DNA from: Oceaniferula marina
Lineage (GTDB): Bacteria; Verrucomicrobiota; Verrucomicrobiia; Verrucomicrobiales; Akkermansiaceae
DNA: 64,000 bases
Direction: 5' to 3'
Assembly (NCBI RefSeq): GCF_013391475.1
Contig: NZ_JACBAZ010000001.1
Location: 764,377 to 828,376 of the forward strand
Positions within the stretch are counted from its first letter, which is position 1, and every line of letters begins with the position of its first letter. Under the pieces are notes generated by a model. That model saw nothing but the letters and a program-made list of their open reading frames with translations, had not been told where the DNA came from and made no database searches. The position numbers and the translations under genes were made by a program. Of this stretch, positions 17,311 to 18,365 are shown one piece after another.

Positions 17311-18213
17311 GTGATTGCCGAGCTCCTAAAACAAACACCACGCATTCTCGCCGAATGTGCCGTAGCCGAGCGCCTGCGCCGCCTACCAGACGTCGAACTC
17401 CACCCGACGCTCTTCAATACTCCGCTGATCTACGGTCCAGAGAACGCACGCGATGCCATGACGGCAATCTATCGGGAATACCTCGAGGTGGCAAGAAACG
17501 CAAACCTACCCCTCATCCTGACGGCGCCGACCTGGCGACTCGACGCGTCAAGGGTCGCCCAAGCCCAAGTTCCCCGAACCATCAATCGCGATGCGGTCAC
17601 CTACATTGAAAACATCCGATCCTCAGCGCCACCAACGCAAACTCCGGTAATCATCGGAGCTCTGGTCGGGCCACAAAACGATTGCTACCAACCCAGCCAG
17701 TCACCCGATGCTGCGGCTGCGGAGCGATTTCATACGCCTCAAATTCAAGAACTTGCATCGACCAGAATCGATCTACTGCTTGCCCAGACCCTGCCATCCA
17801 CCACAGAGGCACTGGGCATGGCAAGGGCTCTGTCAGAGAGCGGCAAGGATTACCTCCTCAGTTTTTGTATTGGAGCCGACGGCAACGTGCTCGATGGCAC
17901 GCCTCTACCGGTGGCCATGGCTTCCATCGATCAATCACTCAAATCGCCCCCAGTGGGCTATTTCGTCAACTGCACGCACCCTCGCTTCTTGTTGGATGCC
18001 TACCAGCCCGGCGAGCTTGACCGTCTGATCGGTATTCAGGCCAACGGATCCTCCAAAGACGTCACACAGCTCGACCATTCCAGCCAAACCCAAGCAGACC
18101 CGGTCAGCGACTGGGCCCAAGCCATGCTTGATCTTCACCGACTCCATCAAGTGCAGATCCTAGGAGGTTGCTGCGGCACCACAAGCGAGCACCTGATCTC
18201 ACTAGCCCAATAA
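17311..18213 (+). CDS. Homocysteine S-methyltransferase family protein
   Basis: These enzymes transfer a methyl group to homocysteine, with zinc bound by three cysteines. The C-terminal GGCCGTTSEH motif (Cys-Cys pair) is present near residue 286, and FVNCTHP near residue 223 supplies the third Cys. The N-terminal barrel strand is recognisable as RILAECAVAERL, where the family usually has LLDGGxATEL, so the first catalytic strand is altered. PTLFNTPLIY and LTAPTWRL are family-like. The start is a GTG at 17311 with no obvious ribosome binding site. With 300 residues the length is normal. The true methyl donor and acceptor are uncertain. Confidence 0.8.
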   Translation: MIAELLKQTPRILAECAVAERLRRLPDVELHPTLFNTPLIYGPENARDAMTAIYREYLEVARNANLPLILTAPTWRLDASRVAQAQVPRTINRDAVTYIENIRSSAPPTQTPVIIGALVGPQNDCYQPSQSPDAAAAERFHTPQIQELASTRIDLLLAQTLPSTTEALGMARALSESGKDYLLSFCIGADGNVLDGTPLPVAMASIDQSLKSPPVGYFVNCTHPRFLLDAYQPGELDRLIGIQANGSSKDVTQLDHSSQTQADPVSDWAQAMLDLHRLHQVQILGGCCGTTSEHLISLAQ

Positions 18214-18270
18214 GAAGATTGATAACGAGAGCGTCATCACCAATGCGCCCAAAACAAAGAAGAGGCCGTC

Positions 18271-18365
18271 TGGCGGAGAGGGAAGGAATCGAACCAACCA
18301 CAGATCATAACAACCCGTCAACGGTTTTGAAAACCGCGGCGACCACCAGGCACACTACACTCTCC
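18271..18365 (-). tRNA. tRNA-Sec-like gene (anticodon TCA), divergent or degenerate
   Basis: Read on the minus strand this is a 95-nt tRNA-like sequence with an encoded CCA and G discriminator. The anticodon stem GCGGT/ACCGT encloses TTTCAAA, placing TCA (UCA, the selenocysteine anticodon) at 18330-18328. Features of tRNA-Sec: a D-arm with a 4-base loop (TGGT) that can form six pairs with one bulged T; a long variable arm with stem ACGGGT/ATCTGT; a T-loop TTCGATT; and a CTCTCCGCCA end. The total of 95 nt equals E. coli selC. Oddities: position 7 of the acceptor is a T-C mismatch, the T-stem contains two adjacent T-T mismatches, and the acceptor plus T branch totals only 12 pairs. It could be a working divergent tRNA-Sec, a suppressor-like tRNA, or a decaying copy. 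No sel genes occur in the window. Confidence 0.7.

Follow-up and report, generated by a model that had tools for sequence, protein, structure and literature searches.

A selenocysteine tRNA of unusual build in Oceaniferula marina and its relatives among the Verrucomicrobiota

The minus strand of a 64,000-nucleotide stretch of the Oceaniferula marina genome (hereafter the window; C1:764377-828376 of a 5.07 Mb draft assembly) carries a sequence that resembles a selenocysteine tRNA (tRNA-Sec) but has mismatches in its acceptor and T stems. An earlier note on this DNA left three readings side by side: a divergent tRNA-Sec, an opal-decoding tRNA of the allo-tRNA type, or a gene in decay. Which of these is the case, and how is the acceptor and T branch of such a molecule to be drawn?

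The gene and the selenocysteine pathway of its genome

Between a homocysteine S-methyltransferase-like gene and mutS, ARAGORN calls tRNA-SeC(tca) with ends that coincide exactly with those of the 95-nucleotide sequence proposed earlier (Table 1). The Rfam tRNA-Sec model RF01852, recommended in the earlier note as a check, scores this sequence at 51.7 bits (E = 1.6e-7 when run on the window), above its curated gathering score of 47. Yet this cut-off is not specific, as some tRNA-Ser genes pass it too: among matches above 47 bits, 13 loci checked at 50-57 bits (L126-L128, L130-L136 and L146-L148) proved to be tRNA-Ser by ARAGORN, and L184 and L186 are tRNA-Ser as well. The RF01852 score alone was consequently dropped as a criterion for tRNA-Sec, and the decision falls to the UCA anticodon, complementary to UGA, and to the partner genes.

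The features that had been listed as typical of tRNA-Sec, namely the CCA end, G73, the UCA anticodon, a six-pair D-stem with a 4-nucleotide loop and a long variable arm, were all located in the sequence or its fold. So were the oddities: U7 faces C66, two adjacent T-stem mismatches are formed by U50.U64 and U51.U63, and 12 nucleotides rather than 13 separate the T-loop from the discriminator. To these we add one bulged nucleotide in the D-stem. The free-energy fold is modestly better than that of shuffled sequences (z -1.66; 11 of 200 shuffles as good) and lengthens the anticodon stem into the loop, where the structure used for counting has one bulged U in the 3' strand.

Table 1. The tRNA-Sec gene, its parts and its surroundings, in window coordinates
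Feature	Position	Strand	Basis and remarks
Homocysteine S-methyltransferase-like gene	17311-18213	+	neighbour of selC
Terminator-like hairpin with T-rich tail	18220-18239	-	downstream of selC; weak, 1 found against 0.7 expected by shuffling
tRNA-Sec gene (selC)	18271-18365	-	95 nt; ARAGORN, Rfam RF01852
Encoded CCA	18271-18273	-	
Discriminator G73	18274	-	
Acceptor stem, 3' strand CUCUCC	18275-18280	-	minimum free energy (MFE) fold and counts over 83 sequences
T-stem, 3' strand C61 C62 U63 U64 C65 C66	18281-18286	-	two U at 18283-18284
T-stem, 5' strand G48 G49 U50 U51 G52 G53	18294-18299	-	two U at 18296-18297
Long variable arm	18300-18318	-	seven pairs in MFE fold
Anticodon arm	18319-18337	-	one bulged U, 3' strand, in the counted structure
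Anticodon UCA	18328-18330	-	
D-arm	18339-18355	-	six pairs, 4-nt loop, one bulged nucleotide; MFE fold; 97.4% of cells paired, both-side changes at 5/6 pairs
Positions 7 and 8 (U, G)	18358-18359	-	unpaired in preferred fold; 7-66 never a pair in 83 sequences
Acceptor stem, 5' strand GGAGAG	18360-18365	-	six pairs with 18275-18280; MFE fold; 100% of cells paired in 83 sequences, both-side changes at two pairs
mutS	from 18512	+	neighbour of selC

The partner genes are present in the genome. Profile searches found selA (514.6 bits), selB (306.6 bits; GTPase, SelB beta-barrel and SelB winged-helix domains) and selD (375.3 bits), each above its curated cut-off. All three lie outside the window, and the earlier remark that no sel genes accompany the tRNA is true of the window but not of the genome; selD stops about 7 kb short of the window, some 25 kb from the tRNA. 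In the earlier note decay was expected to go with a lack of selA, selB and selD, of UGA-containing homologues and of expression; this genome has the sel genes and the UGA-containing homologues. One in-frame TGA interrupts selD near its N-terminus in the context AAGUAAKL, the site of the catalytic Cys or Sec in SelD proteins. Among 13 matches to the AhpC-TSA family, three have one in-frame TGA inside the match. The UGA lies in WUGPC in a ResA/thioredoxin-like protein and again in a second thioredoxin-like protein, and in FWUPYC in an AhpC-like protein, whose match to SelL_rel_redox is weak and below the cut-off and whose frame contains, further along, a second TGA taken as its stop. In all three thioredoxin/AhpC-like genes the UGA occupies the first Cys of the redox motif. 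Judged by sequence, at least four genes, selD among them, are thus candidate targets. The proposal that in-frame UGA codons be sought in selD, thioredoxin-like genes and formate dehydrogenase was borne out for the former two; no UGA-containing FdhA was found among the three molybdopterin-domain matches of this genome, all of which lack an in-frame stop. Local folds 3' of the UGA codons gave hairpins of varied quality, which, folded without a control, are not counted as evidence of SECIS elements. UGA terminates 17 of the 46 non-overlapping ORFs of at least 100 amino acids in the window (mechanical ORFs rather than curated genes), and it is therefore not reassigned. The gene had been thought to affect how UGA codons are read throughout the genome; this applies to Sec at selected codons, UGA being otherwise an ordinary stop.

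The same association was followed in 58 genomes, comprising O. marina and 57 relatives. A tRNA-Sec search at a loose threshold matches 57 of the 58 and all 14 controls, because ordinary tRNAs match weakly (three of the weaker matches in O. marina itself are tRNA-Cys, tRNA-Gly and tRNA-Ser). A tRNA-Sec was recognized by its UUCAAA loop, found in 29 of the 58 genomes and present in 29/29 sequences on inspection. A selA gene occurs in 31 genomes, selB above the cut-off in 33 and selD in 34, with one TGA in 29 of these 34. Both tRNA-Sec and selA are found in 27 genomes and neither in 25, with tRNA-Sec only in two (G006, G039) and selA only in four (G004, G005, G007, G010; Fisher 7e-10, shared descent ignored). 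For selB the corresponding numbers are 28 with both, 24 with neither, one with the tRNA only (G003) and five with selB only (G004, G005, G007, G010, G011; Fisher 4e-10, likewise ignoring descent). The eight genomes in the odd cells of these two tables are all drafts of 200 to 710 contigs. A TGA-bearing selD accompanies the tRNA in 24 genomes and both are lacking in 24, with five in each odd cell (Fisher 1e-6, under the same proviso). Three selD matches lack the TGA despite a tRNA-Sec: one, in G014, is partial and starts at profile position 109, and those of G051 and G053, which have selA as well, are a counter-result. G036 and G055, without tRNA-Sec or selA, have a selD free of TGA, as expected. 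In G040, G043 and G047 the tRNA-Sec gene is followed directly, on the same strand, by selD; the two probably form a selC-selD unit, an arrangement that differs from that in O. marina.

We therefore put at roughly 85% the probability that the window gene is a functional tRNA-Sec gene, ordinary in its function and unusual in its build. The first of the three readings left by the earlier note is retained, while decay and an opal-decoding allo-type tRNA are set aside on grounds given below.

Geometry of the acceptor and T branch

To decide how the branch is drawn, we aligned 83 distinct tRNA-Sec sequences with 12 levels between T-loop and discriminator, 33 of which came from a search pattern that demands U.U (GGTTGG, CCTTCC). 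The 13-level tRNA-Sec sequences (five plus thirteen), 12-level ones with G7 (L180, L183, L185), tRNA-Ser and identical repeats were left out. Also excluded were one copy of L058 (from 1176; a second copy, from 3698, is truncated by the end of the contig), whose acceptor 3' strand contains an insertion, and six partial copies that contain the 3' half only, from the anticodon arm onward (L042 6035-6085, L046 634-686, L052 212-264, L054 2555-2604, L061 6741-6791, L063 1592-1642). Phage-integrase-family genes lie near two of the partial copies (L054, L063; one nearby ORF scanned per locus). In Verrucomicrobiales, mobile elements seem to integrate at tRNA-Sec, a role that selC has in enterobacteria. 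One contig, DCQY01000027, carries two tRNA-Sec copies (L048 7884-7977 and L079 from 586).

When six positions each are assigned to the acceptor, D, anticodon and T stems, 93.6% of cells in the 83 sequences are paired and both-side changes occur in 14 of the 24 pairs; none of 500 shuffles reaches as high on any measure, a score that the relatedness of the rows inflates. For the T-stem helix taken by itself the figure is 76.9%, lowered by U.U. The drawings differ in what they ask of positions 7, 8 and 48. Positions 7 and 66 form a pair in none of the 83 sequences (T.C, A.C and C.C), while G48-C66 is possible in all 83, where it is invariant and shows no covariation. Removal of the 33 pattern-chosen rows leaves 7-66 paired in 0/50, 8-65 in 43/50, and 48-66 and 49-65 each in 50/50. 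Folding energies point the same way. Left unconstrained, the window tRNA adopts a 6/6 branch in its MFE structure; across the 83 sequences the MFE fold contains 48-66 in 71, 8-65 in five and 7-66 in none, and the mean pair probabilities are 0.60, 0.22 and 0.00, respectively.

The best fold is accordingly one with six acceptor and six T-stem positions (6/6), not 8/5, 9/4 or 7/5, and with positions 7 and 8 unpaired. Its sixth T-stem pair, G48-C66, is inferred from folding energy and from a C66 that has no other partner. Several other drawings were rejected. A 7/5 form would have 7-66 as its seventh acceptor pair, which is absent throughout, and a 9/3 form, for which no separate count was made, requires the same pair. 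An 8/4 form needs it too and loses 8-65 in 7/83 sequences, in three of which 49-65 is C-G. The 13-pair 8/5 form is precluded by the 12 nucleotides between the T-loop and G73 of the window tRNA.

Other builds occur in the phylum. In the three 12-level sequences with G7 (L180, L183, L185), this base is able to pair with C66, and the D-arm is built differently; L183 has U at position 48. The 13-level type is common, accounting for 13 of 20 parsed Sec loci in a wider sample and for 5 of 56 in the set chosen independently of the U.U pattern, and one genome (G101) has both a 13-level and a 12-level tRNA-Sec (L104, L129). The scatter of the two types among related families suggests transfer or an old duplication.

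Conservation of the T-stem mismatches

A scan of GTDB species genomes for tRNA-Sec-like sequences whose T-stem reads GGTTGG...CCTTCC, a search with U.U built in, returned 63 stretches, with two from some genomes. The titles of 62 are verrucomicrobial (Verrucomicrobiales, Akkermansiaceae, Rubritalea and others), and the carriers include the cultured Rubritalea marina DSM 17716 and R. profundi; the remaining one, L070 (5131-5220), is a metagenome-assembled contig titled Planctomycetota with the same U.U tRNA-Sec, reflecting either transfer or mis-binning. Rates of U.U were taken from the set not selected by this pattern, which holds 56 sequences with the window's own included: five have 13 levels and 51 have a 12-level branch, 47 of the latter being distinct.

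Among the 28 distinct sequences from the same order, Verrucomicrobiales, 50.64 is U.U in 27 and U.G in one. Position 51.63 is more variable (U.U in 20, G-C in four, G.U in three and C-G in one), and the adjacent 49-65 is a standard pair in all 28 (GC 24, CG 3, AT 1). The single exception at 50.64, L008 from G051, has no U.U at all, and the selD match of its genome lacks an in-frame TGA. Of the 19 distinct sequences that come from other orders of the class, 18 have standard pairs at both 50-64 and 51-63, and the remaining one (L122) has a one-base bulge. These 19 are best-scoring matches only (30 loci and others fetched further), and since U.U lowers the Rfam score, the contrast between orders may be overstated; U.U may be commoner in the other orders than the 19 indicate. 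A single U50.U64 was encountered in L182, of the same class and outside the order, and in three 12-level sequences from outside the class (L174, L178, L181). Together with G51-C63 in four same-order sequences, these cases indicate that U.U need not occur as a tandem. In Verrucomicrobiales U50.U64 is almost invariant, and it is present elsewhere in the phylum; most sequences of the order have the tandem. One tRNA-Ser, one tRNA-Cys and one tRNA-Gly of O. marina have fully paired T-stems.

How does this molecule compare with those already described? It shares with the bacterial 8/5 tRNA-Sec (Escherichia coli type, RF01852) the UCA anticodon, G73, the six-pair D-stem with 4-nucleotide loop, the long variable arm and a match to the model, and differs from it in having 12 levels rather than 13, U.U in the T-stem and six acceptor pairs. 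A 12-pair 7/5 tRNA-Sec with bulged D- and anticodon stems has been reported from Gammaproteobacteria, Clostridiales, Spirochaetes and a few other groups (PMC5330540). The Cloacimonetes type and the 47 tRNAs of that paper resemble ours in the 12-level branch and the bulges, but ours and its relatives lack the seventh acceptor pair (0/83) and have a six-position T-stem with U.U mismatches; the paper's main text never uses the word 'Verrucomicrobia'. Allo-tRNAs, which have 8/4 or 9/3 branches (PMC7609411), likewise combine a 12-level branch with a long variable arm and a long D-stem. The window tRNA, in contrast, has the shorter acceptor stem and the longer T-stem, the opposite redistribution, and is linked to selA and selB. 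We found no description of a U.U or 6/6 tRNA-Sec in the open literature on tRNA-Sec with Verrucomicrobia or on novel cloverleafs, as far as its accessible text goes, and earlier work on cloverleafs or on bacterial tRNA-Sec structure could contain something similar. None of five structural terms occurs in PMC8124441, and PMC4807772 yields passages on planctomycete selenoproteins rather than on tRNA structure. As far as this open literature was checked, the gene is a member of the tRNA-Sec family whose 12-level form here is a variant new to print.

Sorting between SelB and EF-Tu

In the selenocysteine pathway, SerRS charges the tRNA with serine, SelA and selenophosphate convert the product to Sec-tRNA, and SelB delivers it at a UGA accompanied by a SECIS element. 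For the window tRNA this would mean charging with serine, conversion by SelA using selenophosphate made by SelD, and delivery by SelB at chosen UGA codons. Its D-arm, the part read by SelA (PMC7609411), is intact. In E. coli, tRNA-Sec is kept off EF-Tu by its long branch and by an antideterminant at 7:66, 49:65 and 50:64 (PMC11231383), and the pairs 49-65, 50-64 and 51-63 contribute most to EF-Tu binding (PMC8219837). Because the branch of the window tRNA counts 12 levels, the canonical length, and U.U falls on T-stem pairs read by EF-Tu, U.U and the open 7.66 may keep the Sec-tRNA off EF-Tu or on SelB, doing the job of the 13-pair branch elsewhere. This is the least certain step of the scheme, and contrary evidence exists: an E. 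coli tRNA-Sec engineered to carry G7:C66, U49:G65 and a mismatched C50:U64 had a higher, not a lower, affinity for EF-Tu (PMC11231383), and a pyrimidine mismatch at 50.64 thus need not repel EF-Tu. We regard a sorting role of U.U as tentative, with the odds somewhat against it. The wider proposal is more doubtful still: that Verrucomicrobiota use a 6/6 cloverleaf, split in the direction opposite to that of allo-tRNAs, and that in Verrucomicrobiales U.U at the EF-Tu-read pairs replaces the 13-pair length rule for sorting.

There is also a plainer account, to which we give a minor but real share of the probability: an ordinary 12-pair 7/5 tRNA-Sec with a U7.C66 mismatch, its U.U being neutral drift fixed in an ancestor. 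Tandem U.U can remain stacked, which counts for this account, as do the 12-level sequences elsewhere in the phylum in which G7 faces C66. The published 7/5 molecules of several phyla, whose D-stem and anticodon-stem bulges also fit the window tRNA, lend it further support (PMC5330540). A merely mismatched 7-66, however, sits poorly with a position that is non-standard in 83/83 sequences while 48 is always G, and drift with a 50.64 that is U.U in 27/28 while the neighbouring 49-65 changes with compensation. The same engineered tRNA, which gained EF-Tu affinity, and the preference of EF-Tu for 12-pair branches (PMC11231383) would fit a different outcome, in which a 12-level branch and a pyrimidine mismatch at 50.64 let the Sec-tRNA be accepted by EF-Tu and SelB alike and delivery is relaxed rather than more exclusive. 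We consider this improbable: selB is present in 28 of the 29 genomes with tRNA-Sec, and delivery by EF-Tu would be expected to misread ordinary UGA stops.

The remaining readings would take the gene out of the selenocysteine pathway. If the gene encoded an allo-tRNA or another opal suppressor, charged by SerRS and carried by EF-Tu, the 12-level branch and the UCA anticodon would be accounted for; against it, the 8/4 drawing loses 8-65 in some sequences and 7-66 in all, selA and selB co-occur with the tRNA, and UGA often serves as a stop in the window, all of which makes this reading very unlikely. A decaying pseudogene would explain two T-stem mismatches and one at acceptor position 7 in a single sequence, but the identical mismatches recur across the order, the stems covary, and the genome has a complete set of selA, selB and selD together with UGA-containing genes. 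Mismatch conservation, covariation and the intact machinery rule decay out for practical purposes.

A functional tRNA-Sec, divergent in build, is thus the reading carried forward. It illustrates that a conserved tRNA can resemble a decaying one if measured against the standard fold. That SelB takes tRNA-Sec and EF-Tu does not is usually put down to the extra-long branch of the molecule, and a large bacterial group with selA and selB, a branch of ordinary length and conserved mismatches at the EF-Tu contact pairs amounts to a natural experiment on that length rule. A 12-level tRNA-Sec would also offer a chassis for work on selenoprotein production.
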